Part shown: positions 6,394 through 58,167 of the stretch, piece after piece | Position numbering within the stretch: the first letter of the stretch is position 1 | Layout: every line of letters begins with the position of its first letter | From: an uncultured Erysipelotrichaceae bacterium | GTDB lineage: Bacteria; Bacillota_I; Bacilli_A; RF39; UBA660 | Direction of reading: 5' to 3' | NCBI GenBank assembly: GCA_948442015.1 | Contig: CAOJRP010000006.1 | Coordinates: 1 to 62,753 of the forward strand | DNA: 62,753 nt | Position numbers and translations under genes: made by a program | The notes under the pieces: generated by a model | What the model was told of the DNA's origin: nothing | Seen by the model: only the letters and a program-made list of their open reading frames with translations | Database searches by the model: none

Positions 6394-6930
6394 TTAAGCT
6401 GCTTTCTTACCTTCTTTACGACGTACATATTCATCTTTATAACGAATACCTTTACCTTTATATGGTTCTGGTTCTCTTATTTTACGAATATTCGCCGCAA
6501 GTTCAGATACTCTTTGCTTACTACTTCCTGAAATAGTAATCTCCGTATTACTTACTTGTTCTACCTTCATGTCAGATGGAACAACTACTTCAATTGGGTG
6601 AGAATAACCCGCATTAACAGAAATTTTATTTCCTGCAACGTTGAAACGATATCCTACACCAACTGCTTCTAAGCTTTTACTATACCCTTCCGTTACACCA
6701 ATCAACATATTGTTAATTAAAGCATTAGTAGTTCCATGTAATTGTTTAGCTTGTTTTGTTTCATTTTTTCTGTTAGTAATTATTTTTCCTTCAACTTCTT
6801 TAACTTCGATTAATGAATTATAACTTTCTTGTAATTCCGCTTTAGGTCCTTTTACTTTAACTAAGTTATCAGTTATTTCAACAGTAACTCCACTAGGTAT
6901 TACAAGCTCTCTTTTTCCTATTCTACTCAT
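6394..6930 (-). CDS. rplF: 50S ribosomal protein L6
   Basis: L6, 178 residues, with two similar beta-alpha domains near the factor-binding site. MSRIGKRELVIPSGVTVEI and the C-terminal signature EPEPYKGKGIRYKDE are conserved. Normal length and order after rpsH. The SD before the ATG is weak (AAGGAAAATTA). Confidence 0.97.
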   Translation of the reverse strand: MSRIGKRELVIPSGVTVEITDNLVKVKGPKAELQESYNSLIEVKEVEGKIITNRKNETKQAKQLHGTTNALINNMLIGVTEGYSKSLEAVGVGYRFNVAGNKISVNAGYSHPIEVVVPSDMKVEQVSNTEITISGSSKQRVSELAANIRKIREPEPYKGKGIRYKDEYVRRKEGKKAA

Positions 6931-46308: not shown

Positions 46309-46324
46309 TTATGTTATAATATTT
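46309..46324. repeat. Putative attL, 16-bp direct repeat
   Basis: TTATGTTATAATATTT, identical to 58152-58167. It is the left boundary of the element, about 50 bases outside the integrase stop. It contains TGTTATAAT, an extended -10 box. Confidence 0.65.
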
Positions 46325-46370: not shown

Positions 46371-46391
46371 TTGTTACTAACTTGTTATTAG
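46371..46391. other. Int arm-type doublet site, left
   Basis: TTGTTACTAAC TTGTTATTAG, two copies of an 11-bp unit. Related doublets occur at 51979-52000 (inverted) and 58040-58061. It overlaps the end of the integrase gene. Confidence 0.5.
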
Positions 46392-47393
46392 TTCAATTGC
46401 ATATTTTAGTTCTTCAAGTGTTTTATGTGTATAAACTCTTTCACCAACTTCTTTGGATTTGTGACCCATTAACATATCAATACATTTCTTATTTGCACCT
46501 GCTGAATCCAATCTACTTCTGAATGTATGTCTGCATTCATGTGGTGTATGATCCATTTTAAATTTTTCCATTAAATCATCCCATATTTTATAATATAGAT
46601 AACTTGATAACTTTTTCCCATCTAGTTCAAATAAATAAACTTGTCCAGATTCCACCCTAGATTTGATTATATTGAAGATTTTGGAATGAATAGGTATAAT
46701 CCTATTCTTACCAGCATTTGTCTTTGTACCACCTTGTATTGTGCCTTGTTCAAGGTCTATATCTGTAATTTTAATATTTAAAAGTTCACTAATTCTAAAA
46801 CCCGTGTATATGAATACTAATATTGAATCAACCCATTCTTCTTTTTCATGTTCCCACAATATCTTAATTTCTTCTTCAGTGAATGGGATTTTAGTTGTTT
46901 CAGGAATACTTTCAGCAGTAGTTAATTGTGCATAAGACTTATTTATAACATCTAGTTCTAAAGCAAATTTATCTAAATGACCAAATAAATTTTTAATTGC
47001 CCATTGTGTTGAATAACCACAACCACAATTATCAATACAATCTTGCATGTGAAATGATTTTAAATCCTTATACTTCATATCATGATATTTTTTAGTGTGT
47101 TTAAATGCTGAAGTTAGTGAACCTCTAGTTGATTTATTTAATTTTAATAATTTCTTTTCTTGAAATAATTTCCATAATTCTTTTAATGTAACCTTAACTG
47201 CATCTACATCATAAGGATCATTATTATATAATGCTAACATAATATTTCCTTCTTCTCTTGTAGGTGCATATCCAATTGTTAAATAAATAGGGTGACCTTT
47301 TTCATTCCATCCAGTGGTTTTTCTTACTGCAAATGGATTTCTTCTGTTTCCTGATAATTTAACAACTGATCCATAACCATTTGGATTTTTCAT
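46377..47393 (-). CDS. int: Tyrosine recombinase (integrase)
   Basis: 338 residues from MKNPNGYGSVVKLSGNRRNP (ATG 47393, AAAGGA SD), a typical start for Tn916-like/phage integrases with an N-terminal AP2-like arm-binding domain. The SAM-like core-binding domain is in the middle. Catalytic residues are visible: Arg in TGFRISELL, His-x-x-Arg in HECRHTFRSRL, His in LMGHKS and Tyr in ERVYTHK. It is transcribed towards the left end. The longer upstream frame lacks family similarity. Confidence 0.93.
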   Translation of the reverse strand: MKNPNGYGSVVKLSGNRRNPFAVRKTTGWNEKGHPIYLTIGYAPTREEGNIMLALYNNDPYDVDAVKVTLKELWKLFQEKKLLKLNKSTRGSLTSAFKHTKKYHDMKYKDLKSFHMQDCIDNCGCGYSTQWAIKNLFGHLDKFALELDVINKSYAQLTTAESIPETTKIPFTEEEIKILWEHEKEEWVDSILVFIYTGFRISELLNIKITDIDLEQGTIQGGTKTNAGKNRIIPIHSKIFNIIKSRVESGQVYLFELDGKKLSSYLYYKIWDDLMEKFKMDHTPHECRHTFRSRLDSAGANKKCIDMLMGHKSKEVGERVYTHKTLEELKYAIELITS

Positions 47394-47432
47394 TTTATCA
47401 AATTCCTTTCTAATTTTTTTTACATATGACAT

Positions 47433-47461
47433 TTGACTAAATCCCAAGAAAATGATAAAAT
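47433..47461 (+). promoter_or_regulatory. Strong plus-strand promoter upstream of the integrase
   Basis: TTGACT (47433-47438), 17 bases, TAAAAT (47456-47461) with TGA extension. ATTTGAC (47432-47438) and GTCAAAT (47468-47474) form a perfect inverted repeat around it, a possible operator. No protein gene follows on this strand. Confidence 0.65.
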
Positions 47462-47467
47462 GATATT

Positions 47468-47560
47468 GTCAAATATGGGAATTAGAATGACTTTCTTTTC
47501 ATTATTTGATTAAATTTAGACTTTGTTCCTTGTGCTGTCACACAGGGAACTATTTTTTAT
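47468..47560 (+). ncRNA. Candidate ~90-nt small RNA of the element
   Basis: It starts from the promoter at 47433-47461 and ends at a 10-bp hairpin (47525-47534 with 47541-47550, loop CTGTCA) followed by TATTTTTT. It lies divergent to int and converges on the 3' end of the repressor gene, overlapping its stop. No convincing ORF with an SD is inside. The hairpin lacks a T-run on the minus strand, so it is not the terminator of the repressor. Confidence 0.55.
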
Positions 47561-47994
47561 TTTGTGTTTTGAGAATCATCATTTGGTGATTCTTTTTTGT
47601 ATTTTGGAATTAAAGTAAGATCATCAACAACTTCAATTGCTTTTTGCTTTCCTTTTGAATTTAATTCATCAAAAGATTCAAGTATGTTTACATAATCAGA
47701 ACCAAAAGTATTTTGAATTTGTTCAATAGTGTTTACCTTTTCTTGAAGTTTTTCTTTTATTGAACTTTCTTCCCAACCTTTTAATGTATTGTCATTAACA
47801 CCAGAATTTAACCAAAGTTCAGATACATTGAATGTCTTACTTATAAGTTTAATATTTCTAATAGATAGGTTTCTTGTTCCATTCTCTATATTAGATATTC
47901 CTGATTTTTTTAATCCAATTTTTTCACCAAATTCTTCTTGTGTTAAACCTAATGACAATCTTAATTCTTTAACCCTATTACCAATATCACTCAT
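47557..47994 (-). CDS. CI-like phage repressor (Xre HTH)
   Basis: 145 residues from ATG 47994 (AGGAGG SD). The HTH is in the N-terminal half (LGLTQEEFGEKIGLKKSGISN, here in part: LTQEEFGEKIGLKKSGIS), followed by KTFNVSELWLNSG, typical of phage repressors. The C-terminal part is a charged helical region (about 80-130) with no peptidase motif, so autocleavage is unlikely. Divergent from the Cro-like gene across an operator region. Confidence 0.85.
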   Translation of the reverse strand: MSDIGNRVKELRLSLGLTQEEFGEKIGLKKSGISNIENGTRNLSIRNIKLISKTFNVSELWLNSGVNDNTLKGWEESSIKEKLQEKVNTIEQIQNTFGSDYVNILESFDELNSKGKQKAIEVVDDLTLIPKYKKESPNDDSQNTK

Positions 47995-48005
47995 CAAAAT
48001 CCTCC

Positions 48006-48125
48006 TTCTATAATTGGTACAAGTACATTATATATCAAAAAATTATGTTTGTAAACATTATTTACCCAAAAGTTTTCAAAAGTTCACAAAAGTTATTGAC
48101 AAGTACACAAAAGATATATTATAAT
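48006..48125. promoter_or_regulatory. Divergent CI/Cro promoter-operator region
   Basis: Rightward promoter: TTGACA (48096-48101), 18 bases, TATAAT (48120-48125). Leftward promoter: TTTACA, 17 bases, TATAAT on the minus strand near 48030-48060. Three tandem 10-bp units CAAAAGTTNN run at 48067-48096 up to the rightward -35 box. ACAAGTACA occurs in both promoters' start regions. Confidence 0.75.
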
Positions 48126-48159
48126 GTATTCATACAGAACAAGAAAGAAGGTGAAAAAT

Positions 48160-48366
48160 ATGAAAATTGATAAAGAAAAATTACAATTAGCAATAGCAAA
48201 AAAATGTTATACAATTAATGATTTAGCAGAAAAAGCAGAAATTTCAAGAAATAGTATTAATGCTTATATGTCAGGAAGAAAAAATCCTAAACCAATGACA
48301 GTTGGAAAAATAGCAAGGGTTCTTGAAGTAAAAGTGGAAGATATAGTTAAAACGGAAAACAATTAG
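48160..48366 (+). CDS. Cro-like Xre HTH regulator
   Basis: 68 residues from ATG 48160 (AAGGTGA SD). The entire protein is one HTH_3 domain: CYTINDLAEKAEISRNSINAYMSGRKNPKP, then KIARVLEVKVEDIV. First gene of the rightward transcript, likely acting against the CI-like repressor. Confidence 0.85.
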   Translation: MKIDKEKLQLAIAKKCYTINDLAEKAEISRNSINAYMSGRKNPKPMTVGKIARVLEVKVEDIVKTENN

Positions 48367-48403
48367 TCTAAATTTATTCAAAGTGAAAGGAAATGATAGA
48401 AAA

Positions 48404-48817
48404 ATGAATAAAAAAATTGCAAGTGGAATTTATAAAGTTAATGTTGTAAAAATGGAATTGAAAGGATCTAAAAATGATGATCCAATGGTTTCAATTTGGT
48501 TTAAGGTTGTACCACAAGGTAAATATACCAATAAATTAATATTTATGAACCAGGTGATTACAGAAGGTTATCAGATTCATATTGTAAATGAATTATTAAG
48601 AAGTTTAACTGAAAATTTAACTGATGTAGATATAGAATTTATTAATTATCCCCAATATTCAAAACTATTAGATGATGTTGTTAAAAAGATAAGAAATAAA
48701 TTTATTTACTTACTAGATTATAGGCAAAATACTAAAGGATATAAATTATTTAAAATTGTAAAAACATTTGATGTTAAAGAAAAAGGAAGCAACCTGAATG
48801 TTAAAATTACAAAATAA
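48404..48817 (+). CDS. DUF669 phage protein
   Basis: 137 residues from ATG 48404 (AAAGGA SD). The pattern GIYKVNVVKMELKGSKNDDPMVSIWF, FMNQVITEGYQIHIVNELLRSL fits DUF669, found in phage replication modules and thought to bind single-stranded DNA. It lies directly before the primase. Asp-Pro here is GAT-CCA, giving GATC, unlike chromosomal genes. Confidence 0.75.
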   Translation: MNKKIASGIYKVNVVKMELKGSKNDDPMVSIWFKVVPQGKYTNKLIFMNQVITEGYQIHIVNELLRSLTENLTDVDIEFINYPQYSKLLDDVVKKIRNKFIYLLDYRQNTKGYKLFKIVKTFDVKEKGSNLNVKITK

Positions 48818-48844: not shown

Positions 48845-50836
48845 ATGGATGAATTTTTTAAAGGATATGTAAAAACTAAAGATAAAAAGTGCATGGAAAA
48901 GTTCAAAAATAGAAATGATTTTAAATCTTATGAAGAAGTAAAAGACTTACCTGAATTTGCAGGAATTCTTGCAGACAATACTATTTTAGTTGATATTGAT
49001 GATAGTGAACAAGCAGAACTTATGATGAACATTGTTGAAGATTTTCAACTTAATTGTAGAGTTTATCAAACAACTAGAGGGAAACATTTTCTATTCAGAA
49101 ATACAAACATTGAAAAATGTTATACCCATTGCAATTTAGCATGTGGAATAACTGCTGATATTAAAGTTGGATGTAAAAATTCATATGAAATTCTTAAATT
49201 TGATAATAAAGAAAGATTTATTGAATGGGATATTGAAGAAGGCATGGAATATCAATCTATTCCTAAATGGATGACACCAGTAAAAAATAGTACAGATTTT
49301 CAAAATATGGAAAATGGTGATGGAAGAAATCAAGCATTATTTAATTATATCCTAACCTTACAATCAAGTGATTTTTCAATAGAGGAAGCAAGAGAAACTA
49401 TAAAAATCATTAATAATTATGTTTTGAAAGAACCATTATCAGATGATGAATTGGATGTAATATTAAGAGATGATTCATTTAAGAAACCTATTTTTTACAA
49501 GGGAAATTCATTCTTATTTGATAAATTTGCTTTATTTTTAAAGAATAATCATCATATCAAAAGGATTAATAATCAATTACATTTATTTAAAGATGGAATA
49601 TACATTACTGGTCAACAAGAAATTGAATCAGCAATGATCGAGCATATACCACAATTAAATAGAGCAAAAAGAACAGAAGTAATGTCATATTTAGATATTT
49701 TGATTAGAGAAAATACACCAGTTACACCAGCAAAATTTATTGCTTTTAGGAATGGGATTTTAAACATTGATACAAATGAATTATTACCTTATTCACCTGA
49801 TTTTATTATTACTAATAAAATTGAATGGGATTATAACAAAAATGCTTATTCTGAAGAAGTTGATGAAGTATTAAATAATATTTCTTGTAATGATAAAGAA
49901 ATAAGGGAATTACTTGAAGAAATTGTTGGATCTTGCTTTTACAGATCACAAACACTTGCTGGTGGAAAAGCTATTGTTTTAGTCGGAAATGGTGCAAATG
50001 GTAAATCCACATATCTTAAATTGCTAAAAAAAGTTTTAGGTGATGAAAACACTTCAGCACTTGATTTAAGAAAGTTAGATGATAAATTTTCTACTGTTAT
50101 GATGTTTGGAAAATTAGCAAACATTGGGGATGATATAAATGATAAAATTATTTGTGATATGTCCTTTTTTAAAAAGGTTGTAACTGGGGAAACTGTTCCA
50201 GCACAACAGAAAGGTCAACCCCAATTTGATTTTGCCCCATATTGTAAATTAATATTTAGTGCAAATAATATTCCTAGAATGGGTAATGGTATGGATTCAT
50301 TTGCAATTCGTAGAAGATTAGTCATTGTTCCATTTAATGCTAAATTTACAAAAGGCAACGAAAATTATAACTTAAATATTGTTTCTTCATTATCTACACA
50401 ATCAAGTATGGAATATTTAATTAAATTAGGGGTTGAAGGATTAAAGAGGATATTACAAAATAATGATTATACTACTTCAGATAAGGTTCAATCTGAAATG
50501 AAAGATTATCAAATGGCAAATGATCCTATTTTTGCTTTTATAATCGAAGAACAAGAAAAAATAAGTGTTGATGGTGCAAAAGTCTTTGAGAATGAATTTC
50601 AAAAGGATGTAAAAGCAAGATATGAAGTCTTTTGTATAAATAATGGTTTTAATAATGACAAAATTCCAGATAATATGTTTACAAAAAAATTAAAACTATA
50701 TATACCTACTTTAGAAACAACAAGACCTAGGGTAAATATAGAAACTAAAAATGCTGAAGGAAGACTTCAAAATAAAAGTATTAGAAAAACACAATATGTT
50801 TATATGGACACAATAAACAAAAATAGGACAAGTTAG
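48845..50836 (+). CDS. D5/P4-type primase-helicase
   Basis: 663 residues. The N-terminal half has a primase/polymerase-like segment with ILVDIDDSEQAELMM and QTTRGKHFLFRN, then a D5_N region (about 260-340, GILNIDTNELLPYSPDF). The superfamily 3-type helicase follows: Walker A LVGNGANGKSTYLKLL (about 378) and LIFSANNIPRMGNG (about 475). The C-terminal wing is helical. It is the replication initiator of many satellites and probably acts on the iteron region immediately downstream. Confidence 0.9.
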   Translation: MDEFFKGYVKTKDKKCMEKFKNRNDFKSYEEVKDLPEFAGILADNTILVDIDDSEQAELMMNIVEDFQLNCRVYQTTRGKHFLFRNTNIEKCYTHCNLACGITADIKVGCKNSYEILKFDNKERFIEWDIEEGMEYQSIPKWMTPVKNSTDFQNMENGDGRNQALFNYILTLQSSDFSIEEARETIKIINNYVLKEPLSDDELDVILRDDSFKKPIFYKGNSFLFDKFALFLKNNHHIKRINNQLHLFKDGIYITGQQEIESAMIEHIPQLNRAKRTEVMSYLDILIRENTPVTPAKFIAFRNGILNIDTNELLPYSPDFIITNKIEWDYNKNAYSEEVDEVLNNISCNDKEIRELLEEIVGSCFYRSQTLAGGKAIVLVGNGANGKSTYLKLLKKVLGDENTSALDLRKLDDKFSTVMMFGKLANIGDDINDKIICDMSFFKKVVTGETVPAQQKGQPQFDFAPYCKLIFSANNIPRMGNGMDSFAIRRRLVIVPFNAKFTKGNENYNLNIVSSLSTQSSMEYLIKLGVEGLKRILQNNDYTTSDKVQSEMKDYQMANDPIFAFIIEEQEKISVDGAKVFENEFQKDVKARYEVFCINNGFNNDKIPDNMFTKKLKLYIPTLETTRPRVNIETKNAEGRLQNKSIRKTQYVYMDTINKNRTS

Positions 50837-50863
50837 GTACAAGCATAAATTATTAACTTGTCC
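50824..50863. repeat. 11-bp inverted repeat at the primase stop
   Basis: AGGACAAGTTA (50824-50834) and TAACTTGTCCT (50853-50863) are perfectly complementary around an 18-nt spacer, followed by TGATTTTTA. It may be the primase terminator and also shares the GGACAAGT unit of the origin-like region. Confidence 0.7.
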
Positions 50864-50901
50864 TTGATTTTTACAAATAAATAAAAGGATTTTTAAGATT
50901 A

Positions 50902-51033
50902 TGGACAGGTGGACAAGTTAAATTCAATTTATTTATAAAATATAATACACTAAAAAAAAAGTATTAATAAATTTTTTTATATACAGAAAAAAAAGAATAT
51001 AAATTAACTTGTCTTCTTGTCCAACATGTCCAT
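50902..51033. other. Putative replication origin: iterons flanking an AT tract
   Basis: On the left TGGACAGG and TGGACAAGTTAA (50902-50922) are tandem copies of a GGACANGT unit. An 82-base stretch with only about seven G/C follows. On the right TTAACTTGTC, TTCTTGTCC and ACATGTCC (51004-51033) are three inverted copies. GGACAAGTTAA and TTAACTTGTC form a 10-bp inverted repeat across the AT tract. This is the layout of satellite/SaPI-type origins, right next to the primase-helicase gene. Confidence 0.6.
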
Positions 51034-51064
51034 TTATCTTTTATGAAAGGAAGATGAAAATTAT

Positions 51065-51349
51065 ATGAAAACTAGAAATTTTAATGAACTGAAAGATTGT
51101 ATACCTAAAGAAGTATATGATCATATAAAAAATAATTATGCAGGTGATGCTTTTTACATATCTACTAAAGATTATGAATTTTCATCACCTACAGAAAAAA
51201 TAAAATACATTCAAAAATTGTATTTTGGTGGTAAATCGGTGAAATATATAGCAAATGAACTTGGAATGTCTGAAGATCGAGTTAATCATCTTAAAAATGC
51301 TAAATTAAAAAAAGATAATGCTAATAAAGTTGAACCTGAAAAAACCTGA
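51065..51349 (+). CDS. Small HTH-like protein
   Basis: 94 residues. The C-terminal half reads KIKYIQKLYFGGKSVKYIANELGMSEDRVNHLKN, a helix-turn-helix as in Mor or sigma-like regulators; the N-terminal half is unfamiliar. A small terminase subunit is also possible, since these have HTH domains at this position, but no large terminase follows. Its last codons form the first doublet of the repeat array. Confidence 0.6.
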   Translation: MKTRNFNELKDCIPKEVYDHIKNNYAGDAFYISTKDYEFSSPTEKIKYIQKLYFGGKSVKYIANELGMSEDRVNHLKNAKLKKDNANKVEPEKT

Positions 51350-51842
51350 AATTATAATCAGAACTTAACAAAACTTAACATTCAAGAAAAAAAAGTATAT
51401 TTGAAAACCTCACAAAACCTCACATTCACCATAAAAATGCTAACAAATGCTAACCTTTAAACATATATTAAGAACCTTACAAAACCTGACATTCTATTTA
51501 AAAATTATTAATAAAACTTGTTATTTGGATTATTCAATTGTTAAGGTTTAAAGATATATAATGTTGTTATACAAGTAGATAGTAAAATGCTAGGAAATGC
51601 TAGGGTTCAAACTATTGATAAGATTCATAGTGACAAAATTGTTAGTATTCAACAGTATTTACGAACTAGAATACTTACAAATGCAAACATAATAAAATAT
51701 AAAGTGGCAGAGAAAAGTAGAGTTTGTGATGCAATTGAAAACACTAACAAATACTAACATTCGAAACTTATTTGAATGGTTGAATTGATAAGGAATGATA
51801 AGGTTAAAACTTATATAGCAAATGTTGACAAATGTTGACCTT
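51332..51842. repeat. Array of ~10 divergent 23-bp doublets
   Basis: The doublets start at 51332, 51361, 51405, 51436, 51472, 51586, 51669 (weak), 51740, 51783 and 51820. Each is a roughly 8-base unit repeated once at 10-base distance, with a spine like nnnTnACAAAnnnTnACaTTC. Within a doublet the variable bases agree (CTTA/CTTA, CCTC/CCTC, GCTA/GCTA, GATAAGG/GATAAGG, GTTG/GTTG) but they differ between doublets. Spacing is irregular (29-114). There is no protein gene between 51350 and 52077. Confidence 0.85.
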
Positions 51843-51866
51843 TAAATTTATATAAAGGGATTGATT

Positions 51867-51978: not shown

Positions 51979-52000
51979 ATTAGTAACAGGTTAGTAACAA
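51979..52000. other. Int arm-type doublet site, middle (inverted)
   Basis: Read on the minus strand: TTGTTACTAAC CTGTTACTAAT. It matches the left and right sites but lies in the centre of the element in opposite orientation. Confidence 0.45.
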
Positions 52001-52006
52001 AAATAC

Positions 52007-52058
52007 AAATATTGTCTAGTATTCCTACACTTTAGAAATATTAGGCAATATTTTTGTT
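52007..52058 (+). terminator. 17-bp stem-loop just before the scaffold gene
   Basis: AAATATTGTCTAGTATT (52007-52023) pairs with AATATTAGGCAATATTT (52037-52053) with only two G-U pairs and a 13-nt loop, followed by TTTTTG. It lies between the promoter at 51940 and the scaffold start at 52078, so it could act as a terminator/attenuator for the late genes. Confidence 0.65.
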
Positions 52059-52077
52059 TGAAAGGATGGTATATATC

Positions 52078-52695
52078 ATGGGTAAGTTGAACAGAGAATT
52101 TTTAAAGGATTTGGGCATAGATGATAAAGATGTTGTTGATGCAATTCTTGATGAACATTCCAAAATAATTGGTGAAGTTAAAAAAGAACTAAATACTGTT
52201 AATGCTAAATTTGAATTTTTGAATCAAAAAAATGATGAATTAACTAGCGAATTAAAAGATAGGGATAATCAACTTAATGATTTAAAAAATTCTACTGAAG
52301 ATGTTGCAGGATTAAAGAAAACTATTGAAGATTTACAAAACACTAATAAGACATGTGATGAAGCACATAAGAATGAAATTAATGATCTTAAAAAATCATT
52401 TGCAATTGAAAATGCTTTAAGAGATGCTAAAGCAAGAAATATTATTTCAGTAAAAGCATTACTTAAATTAGATGAAATTGAATTAAAAGAAGATGGTTCA
52501 TTAAAAGGATTATCTGAACAACTTGAAACTCTTAAAGGTGCTGAAGATAGTAAGTTCTTATTTGATACTGAAACTAGAACCTTAAAAGGGGCAATTCCAG
52601 GGGAAACAGGTATGGATGATCCTAGTACCAAAATTGATTTATCAAAAATGACTTATGATGAAAGAAATGCATATTTTGAAGGTGATTTTGATTGA
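52078..52695 (+). CDS. Phage GP20-type scaffold protein
   Basis: 205 residues from MGKLNREFLKDLGIDDKDVV (GAAAGGATGG SD). A long coiled coil (about 25-110) follows, then the conserved LRDAKARNIISVKALLKLDEI and a C-terminal tail with GETGMDDPS. These are hallmarks of the Phage_GP20 minor structural/scaffold family, which templates capsid assembly. No capsid gene follows, which is unusual. It ends with TGA, overlapping the next start. Confidence 0.85.
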   Translation: MGKLNREFLKDLGIDDKDVVDAILDEHSKIIGEVKKELNTVNAKFEFLNQKNDELTSELKDRDNQLNDLKNSTEDVAGLKKTIEDLQNTNKTCDEAHKNEINDLKKSFAIENALRDAKARNIISVKALLKLDEIELKEDGSLKGLSEQLETLKGAEDSKFLFDTETRTLKGAIPGETGMDDPSTKIDLSKMTYDERNAYFEGDFD

Positions 52696-53153
52696 ACGAG
52701 AAAGAATTACTAAATCAAGTGAAATTAAATAGCAATATAGAGATTATTTATAAAAATTTGTGGGCAGTTAATTTTGATTATTTATCAAATGGTTGGTTAC
52801 AAGGTATTACTATTGATAATTTAGATATTGAAAGTTATTTAACAATAGTTGAATTCGGAATAAATAGTTCTACTACTGTGATCCTAAACAAAGGACATAA
52901 AAATTATGAAAAAATACTATCAGTTTTTAAATTTATTATGAAACTATCTATTAAAGAAATGCAAAACAAAAATACATTTTATAAGTGGTTTAGATGCAAT
53001 TTTAAAAACTATAAAAAATATTCAAATGTTCAAATTGATTCTTTACTAAAAAAGCATGATATATCAAAAGTAAAGGAATTTTATAATCAATCATGTCTTT
53101 TAGAAATTCAAAGAAGAAGGGATGAAAAAATCAGAAAAAAGAAAGGTAGGTGA
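52692..53153 (+). CDS. Hypothetical protein before the tape-measure gene
   Basis: 153 residues from TTG 52692, supported by AAGGTGA as SD; the start overlaps the scaffold stop by four bases. The end is very basic ([16 protein letters not shown]). The place before the tape-measure gene is where tail assembly chaperones usually sit, but I cannot confirm that by sequence. Confidence 0.6.
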
Positions 53154-53158
53154 TAGTT

Positions 53159-55141
53159 ATGGCAAGTATTACAACTGCAATACATCTAACTGATAATATG
53201 ACACCAGTATTAAGAAATATAACTGGTGCAATGGATTCAACTCTTGATATTTTTGAAAATATGGACAGTGAAATGAATAAATCATTTGATACTTCCAAAA
53301 TAAATTCTGCAAGAATTGCAATTGATCAAGTAAATGCTTCATTAAATTCAATGGAAGATAATCTTAATAAAAACTATCAACAACAAAATAAATTAAATAA
53401 GGAAATTCAAGATGGTAAAAACAAAGTTGATAATATGATGGGTTCTGTTGTTTCTTTAGTTTCTGCATATGCTGGATTTAAAACAATTGGTAAATTAGTC
53501 AATTTATCAGATGAATATACTCAAACAAGAGCAAGATTAAATTTAATGAATGATGGTTTACAAACTACTGATGAATTGCAGCAAAAAATATTTAATTCTG
53601 CACAAAGAGCAAGATCATCTTACCAAACACAAGCAGATATAGTTGCAAAACTTGGACAAAGAGCAGGTGATGCTTTTAAATCCAATAATGAAACAATTGC
53701 ATTTGCTGAAAATTTAAGTAAGTTATTTGTTATTGCTGGTGCAAGTCAACAAGAAATGGCATCAGCATCATTACAATTAACCCAAGCATTAGGTTCAGGT
53801 GTTCTTCGTGGTGAAGAATTAAATGCAGTATTTGAATCAGCACCAAATGTTATTCAAACAATTGCTGATTATTTAGATGTTCCAATTGGTAAAATTCGTG
53901 AAATGGCAAGTGATGGTAAAATTACTGCTGATATAGTAAAGAATGCTCTACTAGGTGCTACAAATGATATTAATAGTCAATTTGATAGTATTCCTATGAC
54001 TTGGTCACAAGTATGGACTGGTGTTATGAATGAATTATATGTGGCAACACAACCTATATTAGAATTAATTAATTTACTAGCACAAAATTGGTCAATTATA
54101 GAACCAATTGTAATTGCTTTAGCAACTGCAATTGGATTATATACGGCTGCATTATTAACCTACAACACAATTGTTGGTATTTCCAACATGCTTACTGCAA
54201 CTAAGGCTGCAATGGATGCTTTGGCAGCAGGCAAAACTTTTATGTGGACTGCTGCACAATATGGTTTTAATGCTGCTTTGTTAGCATGTCCATTAACATG
54301 GATTTTGTTAATTATTATTGCAGTTATTGCTGCAATTTATGCAGTAGTAGCAGCCATAAATAAAGCAAAGGGTACAACAGTTAGTGCTACTGGTGTAATA
54401 TGTGGAAGCATTAATGTAGTTTTACAATTTTTTAAGAATTTAGGATTATTTATTGCAAATGTTGCTTTGGGTATTTGGAATGCTTTGGGTGCTTGTGCAT
54501 CAAATATTGGTATTGCATTTAATAATGTTATCTGTAATATTAAATCGTGGTTTTATGGTTTATTAGAAACAGTTATGGATGTTATTGCTGGAATAGTAAA
54601 AACATTGAATAAATTACCATTTATTGATATTGATGTATCAGGTATTACAAGTAAAGCAGATGAATATGCTGCAAAGAAAGCAGAAGCAGAAAATAATAAA
54701 AAAGATTATGAATCAGTAAGTGAAGCATTTAATAAAGGAATGAATACTTTTGATGCCTTTGAAACTGGATGGGTTTCAGATGCATATAATGCAGGTTACA
54801 AAGTTGGTGAAAATGTTGATTCTGCAATAGGAAATTTCTTTGGTGGTGGGGATATTCCTGATATGGCTAGTGATTTAGGTGATCTTGGAAATTCAGCATC
54901 AAAAATTGCATCAGATACTGGTTCAATTAAGGATTCATTAGATATAACTTCTGAAGAATTAAAATATTTAAGAGATTTAGCAGAAAGAGATGTTGTTAAT
55001 AGATTTACTACTGCTGAAATTCATGTTGATATGGGCGGTATTACAAACAATGTATCAAATAATAATGATCTTGATGGAATTATTAATTATCTTGTTGAAG
55101 GTGTTGAAGTTGCTATGGAAGAAACTGCTGAAGGGGTATAA
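53159..55141 (+). CDS. Phage tail tape-measure protein
   Basis: 660 residues from [20 protein letters not shown] (ATG 53159, GTAGGTGAT SD). The N-terminal coiled coil leads into the TMP core [40 protein letters not shown] and [15 protein letters not shown], with hydrophobic segments (about 315-410) as in siphophage tape measures. It is short for a full siphophage tail and stands without tail tube, baseplate or fibre genes. Confidence 0.88.
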
Positions 55142-56589: not shown

Positions 56590-57411
56590 TTATACCTCAA
56601 TAGTTTCAAATGAAGAAAAGTATTCAATTACATTTTTAATAACTTTATTTACAGGTAAATCTAACCAATTTACTTTAGGATCATTAAGCATATTATAATA
56701 TCTTTCTGAATTTAATATTTGCTTCAATCTTATTATAATATCAGTCATATTATTTTCTTTCATAGTAATATCTTTAAAAATTAAAATATCAAAGCAATCT
56801 ACTAATTTTTGTTTATCAATTCCTGCTATATTAATTAAATAGTAAAAATCAAATAAATCTTTGTATCTTGTTGATCTAAAACCTAATTTTAATAAGGATT
56901 TAAGTTTTTCTGTTAGAATCTGTTCTTTTGAATTTATGAGAAGGTTGGCATGTTTGTCAATAATATCAAAACTAAAGCAATATTCATCTTGTTCAATATC
57001 AAATTGTTTGTGGATTCCTATATCAAGTTTAGTATTAATACTATTTCCGTATGTATCTGATAATCTTATATTAACTCTTTTACCATCATAATCTTGATGA
57101 TGTAGTTTCTTGATTGTTCCAATAATAGATATATCAATATTGTCTTTGATATTATTTAATTTATCTATAAAGTTTTTAATTGAATCATCTTCTAAAGAGT
57201 ATTTGATAAAATCCAAATCAAGATCACGAGTTGCTCTACGCTTGTCTTTAGATATATTATGCATAACAACACCACCTTTAATGGTTATATGTTCTCTAAA
57301 ATTACTATTAGATATTTTTAGTAATAAAATGTCCTGACACACTTTGGAACTTGCATCAGCATACTCATATCCTGTTTTGGTGTATTCTTCAATCATACTT
57401 TCAATATTCAT
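56590..57411 (-). CDS. abiEii: AbiEii-like nucleotidyltransferase toxin
   Basis: 273 residues with the AbiEii/DNA polymerase beta-like nucleotidyltransferase motif: ITIKGGVVMHNISKDKRRATRDLDLDFI (about 41-68) holds the G-G and D-x-D catalytic signature. KEQILTEKLKSLLKLG and RSTRYKDLFDFYYL are further family elements. AbiE toxins modify tRNA ends and arrest growth on phage infection. Its start overlaps the antitoxin stop (TAATG), ensuring coupled expression. Confidence 0.88.
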   Translation of the reverse strand: MNIESMIEEYTKTGYEYADASSKVCQDILLLKISNSNFREHITIKGGVVMHNISKDKRRATRDLDLDFIKYSLEDDSIKNFIDKLNNIKDNIDISIIGTIKKLHHQDYDGKRVNIRLSDTYGNSINTKLDIGIHKQFDIEQDEYCFSFDIIDKHANLLINSKEQILTEKLKSLLKLGFRSTRYKDLFDFYYLINIAGIDKQKLVDCFDILIFKDITMKENNMTDIIIRLKQILNSERYYNMLNDPKVNWLDLPVNKVIKNVIEYFSSFETIEV

Positions 57412-57953
57412 TAAAACACCTCTCTTTGCAATGCTTCTGATAGTTTTAAATCGTTTTTAAATAATGATAAATAATTTTCTATTTTTTGCATATCTAAATC
57501 ATCAATAATATCTCTATAATTAGCAATTATCTCTTTGTAATAATCGAATGGCATTTGCTTTCTTTTTCTTATAAGTTCAACAAGTAATCTTTCTTTGTCA
57601 TACATATACACATCTTGATTATTAATTTTAACAATAGTTTTCCCAACATCTAAAATATTTTTATTAGTAAATATTTGTACTATCTTATCATTTTTGATAG
57701 TACGGTATTTGCTAGGTGTAGCAAGATAAACTTTATTTGGTATAACATCAGTTAATTCATAATAATAGAATGCTGAATCCATCGTAATAACTGCATAGGG
57801 GTATTTTTTAGAATAGAGTAATAAAGGATCAACAATCTTTTTGTCTGAATAAATACCATGTTCAAGTTTATATAATTCATTTGTTTTTAATGCTTTTTGA
57901 ATATTGTATCTAGTTCCATATTTTTTAATTAATTCATCATATGAATATAACAT
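57411..57953 (-). CDS. abiEi: AbiEi-like antitoxin/transcriptional repressor
   Basis: 180 residues from ATG 57953 (GAGGTGAG SD). An N-terminal winged helix (ELIKKYGTRYNIQKALKTNELYKLEHGIY) and the AbiEi C-terminal domain (DSAFYYYELTDVIPNKVYLATP, YDKERLLVELIRKRKQ). In the type IV AbiE system it represses its own promoter and neutralises the toxin. A matching inverted repeat lies just upstream. Confidence 0.88.
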   Translation of the reverse strand: MLYSYDELIKKYGTRYNIQKALKTNELYKLEHGIYSDKKIVDPLLLYSKKYPYAVITMDSAFYYYELTDVIPNKVYLATPSKYRTIKNDKIVQIFTNKNILDVGKTIVKINNQDVYMYDKERLLVELIRKRKQMPFDYYKEIIANYRDIIDDLDMQKIENYLSLFKNDLKLSEALQREVF

Positions 57954-57986
57954 AAAACTCACCTCAAAATCATTTTAACATAACGA

Positions 57987-58039: not shown

Positions 58040-58061
58040 CTGTTACTATCTTGTTACTAAC
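58040..58061. other. Int arm-type doublet site, right
   Basis: CTGTTACTATC TTGTTACTAAC, the same orientation as the left site and 18 of 21 bases equal to it. It lies about 90 bases inside the right att repeat. An 8-bp hairpin (CTGAACTT/AAGTTCAG, 58080-58102) sits between. Confidence 0.5.
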
Positions 58062-58151: not shown

Positions 58152-58167
58152 TTATGTTATAATATTT
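58152..58167. repeat. Putative attR, 16-bp direct repeat
   Basis: TTATGTTATAATATTT, identical to 46309-46324. Its TGTTATAAT is the only plausible promoter -10 for the gene at 58187, about 25 bases downstream. Integration here would regenerate that promoter. Confidence 0.65.

Follow-up and report, generated by a model that had tools for sequence, protein, structure and literature searches.

The window analysed here, a 62,753-nucleotide stretch of contig CAOJRP010000006.1 (assembly GCA_948442015.1) from an uncultured Erysipelotrichaceae bacterium, contains an element of ~11.9 kb that by its gene content looks like a phage satellite and that carries an array of ten short DNA doublets, the subject of this work. 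Putative attL and attR cores (46309..46324 and 58152..58167, both on the + strand) form a 16-bp direct repeat, TTATGTTATAATATTT. At the left end, a tyrosine integrase (46377..47447, - strand; PF00589) is followed by a CI-like repressor (47557..47997, - strand; PF01381), a Cro-like regulator (48124..48366, + strand; PF01381), a single-strand DNA-binding protein (48383..48817, + strand; phrog_7778, E 8e-37) and a D5-type primase-helicase (48845..50836, + strand; PF19263, PF08706, phrog_864). The next gene encodes a 94-amino-acid helix-turn-helix (HTH) protein (51065..51349, + strand) directly 5' of the array. Downstream of the array, the + strand encodes a capsid scaffolding protein (52054..52695; PF06810, E 6.5e-37), a conserved 153-amino-acid protein of the satellite group with homologues in the elements L019 and L448 (52692..53153), and a tape measure protein (53150..55141; PF20155, phrog_1068) that shares 41% identity with that of the element L105. 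Small proteins lie between the tape measure gene and an AbiEii/AbiEi abortive-infection pair, which forms the right-end cargo (56590..57962, - strand; PF08843; PADLOC AbiEii, AbiEi).

An integrase, divergent regulators, a primase, a probable origin, att repeats and a size in the ~10-15 kb range are all features expected of a satellite. So is the absence of any PHROG or Pfam match to the terminase large subunit (TerL), portal or major capsid among the ten main element proteins; the other open reading frames are small or belong to AbiE. The element does not show the combination of its own terS gene (terminase small subunit) with a packaging-interference module that characterizes Staphylococcus aureus pathogenicity islands (SaPIs) of the pac type, and no Terminase_2 gene was found in the genome from which the window comes.

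The ten doublets occupy positions 51333-51842 and have the form N8-NN-N8 (18 bp each), mostly followed by [ACG]TT. Within 51301-51860 a lag of 10 yields seven perfect repeats 8-11 bp long, and lags of 3-9 or 11-30 yield none. Dinucleotide shuffles of this region averaged 0.037 runs of this kind, with one as the maximum (2000 shuffles), and gave at most two when any lag was counted (500 shuffles), which rules out chance repeats as the origin of the array. The two halves of the doublets are identical at 74 of 80 positions, compared with a mean of 49.1 and a maximum of 70 when halves were randomly re-paired; as the observed value exceeds all 100,000 re-pairings, the co-variation of the half-sites is real. 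Start-to-start distances are irregular (29, 44, 31, 36, 114, 84, 70, 44 and 37 bp), and no second array-like region was seen elsewhere in the 62.7 kb window. The initial annotation, made from the letters alone, had described irregularly spaced doublets that are identical within and divergent between, and had warned that they might arise often in shuffled sequence. The description is borne out and the caveat is answered, except that identity within doublets is not universal: the doublet at 51671 matches at 5/8 positions, and those at 51473, 51741 and 51785 at 7/8.

Among 80 relatives of the primase in IMG/VR, most of which lack such an array, only one further element, L105, has a comparable array, which lies just 3' of its primase region. 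A blastn search with the L105 array returned matches within terS of Brochothrix phage NF5 and Streptococcus phage Javan355, where the matched DNA encodes K-L-L-Q-N-T-T-I-K and holds the doublet TTACTACA-AA-ATACTACA. A DNA pattern derived from the array retrieved 65 IMG/VR stretches; of those read, nearly all lie in terS, at the same codons, and PF03592 confirms the identity of terS at representative loci. Separately from this pattern-selected set, independent terS sites were picked by protein similarity upstream of the doublet or on primase-linked and other loci, which yielded 91 distinct terS cores collected without use of the doublet itself.

In these 91 cores the halves agree at 6.43 of 8 positions on average, against 4.05 (sd 0.12, max 4.38) in synonymous codon shuffles that keep the codon usage of the terS genes, and 60% of the cores match at 7/8 or better, against 4.8% expected. 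The strongest repeat signal over all positions and lags scanned around the site is lag 10 at the doublet. The pair c2.3-c6.1 agrees in 76 of 91 cores, compared with 33.7 after permutation (max 48); c6.1 is a coding base 10 bp from c2.3, and because c2.3 usually falls on the wobble position of a Leu codon, where changes are silent, a constraint at the DNA level is the natural explanation. Both the synonymous shuffles and this wobble co-variation are what a packaging site, conserved as DNA rather than as protein, should display. Repetition within the TerS protein was considered as a cause and rejected, since a lag of 10 is not a multiple of three and synonymous shuffling abolishes the signal. 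A co-varying 10-bp doublet is carried inside terS by many phages, including the named phages Enterococcus phage EG-TP1 (8/8), Dorea phage DO134P1 (7/8), phiOH2 (7/8), NF5 (7/8) and 80alpha (6/8). Satellite-type terS genes without the doublet were also seen (PT1028, 1/8; L019, 4/8).

All ten doublets of the window lie on the + strand and in a single codon phase, in which they read as the TerS signature (e.g. NLTKPHI, MLTNANL, MLGNARV or LIRNDKVKTYI), and several retain the downstream 'YI' codons of TerS. Doublet 1 (51333..51353; AACCTGAA AA AACCTGAA ATT, 8/8, reading NLKKPEI) shares bases with the stop codon of the 94-amino-acid gene and differs at one position from the terS word of L054. Doublet 2 (51362..51382; AACTTAAC AA AACTTAAC ATT, 8/8, NLTKLNI) is one mismatch from terS of L250, L236 and L056, and is present unchanged at the equivalent place in L019. 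Doublet 3 (51406..51426; AACCTCAC AA AACCTCAC ATT, 8/8, NLTKPHI) matches terS of L223 and L065 at all 21 bp. Doublet 4 (51437..51457; ATGCTAAC AA ATGCTAAC CTT, 8/8, MLTNANL*TYIK) has one mismatch to the pattern-selected terS of L125 and L151 and three to the host-family terS of G241. Doublet 5 (51473..51493; AACCTTAC AA AACCTGAC ATT, 7/8, NLTKPDI) is one mismatch from terS of L209, L191 and L192. Doublet 6 (51587..51607; ATGCTAGG AA ATGCTAGG GTT, 8/8, MLGNARVQ) is one mismatch from terS of G397:C33 (L021), a phage from the host's bacterial family in which terS is followed by TerL and whose prophage terS word is TTGCTAGG/ATGCTAGG. The degenerate doublet 7 (51671..51691; ATACTTAC AA ATGCAAAC ATA, 5/8, ILTNANIIKY) and doublet 8 (51741..51761; ACACTAAC AA ATACTAAC ATT, 7/8, TLTNTNI) lie four and three mismatches, respectively, from their nearest terS words, or five each when only independent words are used. 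Doublet 9 (51785..51805; TTGATAAG GA ATGATAAG GTT, 7/8) reads LIRNDKVKTYIA, a complete TerS-like 12-codon motif, with three mismatches to terS of L059 and L102. Doublet 10 (51822..51842; ATGTTGAC AA ATGTTGAC CTT, 8/8, MLTNVDL*IYIK) is one mismatch from the pattern-selected terS of L131 and four from the independent terS of L050.

Against independent terS 21-mers, the ten doublets in order thus show 1, 1, 0, 3, 1, 1, 5, 5, 3 and 4 mismatches, so that five are within 0-1 mismatches of words chosen without reference to the array, whereas the remaining + strand of the window never comes closer than four. In ~5.8 Mb of fetched loci (both strands, leaving out the arrays of the window and L019), only five sites with at most two mismatches lie outside recognisable terS motifs: two in the L105 array, one 20 bp past the terS stop codon of L199, one in L159 and one in L238. 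Of the two origins offered in the initial annotation, co-varying half-sites proved correct, and their recurrence, which it had proposed to check, is seen in ~90 different terS sites of phages as well as in a second, independent satellite; independent local 10-bp duplications are not needed, because terS genes already contain such doublets, in words that are the same or differ very little. It had also asked whether the region could be a decayed gene. Each site does copy ~20-36 bp of terS, but the array is not a single decayed gene: the 29-114 bp spacing and the ten separate copies of one short segment exclude this.

TerS selects the DNA that headful phages package. Although the initial annotation knew of no named element of this kind, the array corresponds to the terS-embedded packaging-recognition (pac) region of such phages, and its words are found, at 0-5 mismatches, in terS at the pac-bearing region. 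In SPP1, pac overlaps the codons for the DNA-binding domain of gene 1 (terS) and includes direct repeats (PMC6316719, PMC4737164); in P22, pac comprises 22 bp within terS (PMC9611059); and with a 495-bp terS fragment of phage ASZ22RN, plasmid transduction rose almost five orders of magnitude (PMC12323379).

We consider it likely, judging from sequence comparisons, that the ten or so doublets of the array serve a phage satellite as pac sites and imitate those that pac-type phages have embedded in terS. The TerS ring of one phage would read two equal half-sites, spaced by one turn of the helix, through two adjacent HTH domains, with the doublet as the recognition core; the halves within a doublet would agree because one TerS reads both. 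Every phage lineage would have its own word, and the doublets would differ from one another because each copies a different phage. As the satellite encodes neither TerS nor TerL, many words could allow the TerS of several unrelated helpers to bind, and bound helper TerS would then bring in the helper's TerL and set off headful packaging of the satellite DNA. Each doublet would be retained for a different helper, and the single orientation of all ten sites is as directional packaging would need. The predicted reader is helper-phage TerS and probably none of the integrase, primase, CI, Cro and 94-residue HTH proteins of the element, which the initial annotation had put forward for binding assays. 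More broadly, we lean towards the view that some satellites keep a library of addresses copied from phages, updated by capture of terS fragments and serving many unrelated helpers, and that the TerS code of a large phage group may be readable from the terS doublets.

Several observations weigh against this interpretation. The sites at 51437, 51671, 51741, 51785 and 51822 lie 3-5 mismatches from independent terS words, and part of the terS words were selected with the array-derived pattern, a circularity that the independent-word tests avoid. Only seven terS genes were found in 291 genomes of the host family, so the real helpers are poorly sampled. The DNA-binding domains of SF6 TerS bound pac weakly and with no sequence preference in vitro (PMC4737164). 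The terS doublet of 80alpha matches at 6/8, and that of ASZ22RN, from which a pac-active fragment is known, is weak (5/9 at lag 11); these two cases indicate that the doublet may form just a part of pac, at least in some phages.

The same terS location and word matches would be expected if the array were a decoy that titrates helper TerS and blocks helper packaging, instead of or besides packaging the satellite. Satellites do attack helper TerS, via the proteins Ppi and Rpp (PMC6739421), and this element also carries AbiE. However, titration would seem to call for more than ten sites per genome, unless replication amplifies them, and their placement on one strand fits directional packaging; we regard a decoy as unlikely. 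Quite unlikely as well is an operator array through which TerS or the adjacent 94-amino-acid HTH protein controls the late operon from scaffold to tape measure. Here about ten divergent words would be superfluous for one repressor, and the L105 array has two spacing classes and comes without a recognisable homologue of the HTH protein, even though in both the window and L019 the array lies between the conserved HTH gene and the late genes, and a paper cited in PMC6316719 states in its title that the SPP1 terminase represses its own synthesis.

Some of the sites are degenerate, and L448 has terS-like scraps of up to ~24 codons just 3' of its own terS, as would be seen if the doublets were debris of phage recombination with no present function. 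Yet each copy in the window retains just the doublet, the flanking codons of some include stops, and the halves still match; two independent arrays exist, and a bare doublet at the DNA level would not be preserved in debris. Doublet 2 is moreover identical in L019, the one doublet for which such conservation was seen, and we find debris improbable. The ~24-codon scrap of L448 suggests capture of a terS fragment followed by trimming. It is very improbable that the D5 primase reads the doublets as replication iterons or that independent 10-bp slippage produced them: the array does lie 3' of the primase gene, but most primase relatives have no array, the words differ between doublets where an iteron array tied to a replication gene would share one, a separate repeat-bearing region is present at 50837-51064, and slippage does not account for the word matches to terS genes.

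The L105 array contains three lag-10 and eight lag-11 doublets, both classes matching real terS genes. Words of the lag-11 class are present in another subfamily of terS (motif KVLxRY), with an exact 20-bp match in L063 and one mismatch in L041. Lag-11 doublets of 7-9/9 are found in terS of L039, L041, L063 and L096 and in four host-family terS genes, and PF03592 matches L039, L041 and L063. The 13.6 kb record of L105 has no match to Terminase_2 or Terminase_3, and both spacing classes could hardly be read by one TerS. We had considered the lag-11 class as pieces of TerL; the pattern scan gave mostly chance matches and the TerL test was negative, and the class was resolved as terS of the second subfamily.

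L019, from another genus of the host's family, has the same gene order with ~49-86% protein identity; it carries only three doublets, plus a terS between array and scaffold. Other satellite-like records with their own terS and extra doublets just after it are L199/L397 and L448. A scan of 80 tape-measure relatives revealed no further large array except that of the L105 element, and no relatives were found in IMG/VR via the 94- or the 153-amino-acid protein. The HTH protein is conserved in L019 (66%) and L448 (29%), upstream of the array or terS. It has only weak matches to HTH domains of the terminase-small-subunit type (Pfam E 0.012-0.02) and is possibly a TerS-adapting protein akin to Rpp. 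Between the primase and HTH genes lies a probable replication origin (50837..51064, + strand), where repeats of the GGACAAGTT/AACTTGTCC type surround an AT-rich core and suggest this function; the region is distinct from the array and conserved in L019. At the corresponding position L022 has a different repeat, GGTTACACTT (~6420-6720).

Other repeats were noted. A 21-bp tandem repeat, TACACAAAAGTTATTCAAAAG, in the gap between CI and Cro (48063-48117) likely represents operators. Lag-11 doublets of TTAGTAACA sit at both ends of the element (46372-46391 and 58041-58061) and once just 5' of the scaffold gene (51979-51999), and in L019 near 8010 and 2740; the end copies suggest integrase arm sites, a reading that does not extend to the middle copy. 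Lag-11 doublets of GTTCAAGGTnnGTTCAAGGT, outside the terS frame, occur in the phage-like contigs L044 (6816), L052 (11477) and L061 (4492) and are possibly another pac-like word. In a tape-measure satellite group (window 52054-55141, L019, L105/L396 and L448), a small conserved protein precedes the tape measure gene. The window and L019 have a scaffold gene besides, and no capsid, portal or terminase large subunit was seen; members of this group may resize the head and tail of the helper.

A doublet whose co-variation extends over ~90 different terS sites and whose spacing goes by TerS subfamily constitutes a readable candidate packaging code. If the TerS code can indeed be read from terS doublets, pairs of helper and satellite would become predictable from sequence. 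A satellite with many words allows the idea of a broad helper range to be tested directly: phages of many kinds could plausibly package such a parasite, and its sites suggest where phages keep an in-gene packaging address. In the papers searched, from which subscription journals were mostly missing so that this is weak evidence of novelty, we found neither a pac array with many words nor a co-varying terS doublet.

Like the pac sites of headful phages (SPP1/SF6, P22 and 80alpha), which are short TerS-read sites in or beside terS (PMC6316719, PMC4737164, PMC9611059), the doublets copy terS, and SPP1 pac in particular is near the codons of the DNA-binding domain, with direct repeats reported. 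In contrast to these, the array is extragenic, and a single element holds numerous copies whose words differ. Replication iterons resemble it as a cluster of short direct repeats beside a primase gene; they share one word, and this element has a separate origin-like region. The SaPIs and other phage-inducible chromosomal islands (PICIs) of Gram-positive bacteria have an integrase, divergent CI/Cro-like regulators, a primase and origin, a size of ~12 kb and defence cargo, as does this element, which differs from SaPIs in encoding a scaffold and a tape measure protein and from pac SaPIs, which encode their own TerS for their own pac, in lacking TerS. The E. coli PICI EcCICFT073 likewise has more than one packaging site and relies on helper TerS (PMC6739421). 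Its sites are two cos sites and it modifies helper TerS by Rpp, whereas the present element has ~ten pac-like sites with many words. Why that E. coli satellite has two packaging sites was left open (PMC6739421), and the array bears on this question for satellites with multiple sites.
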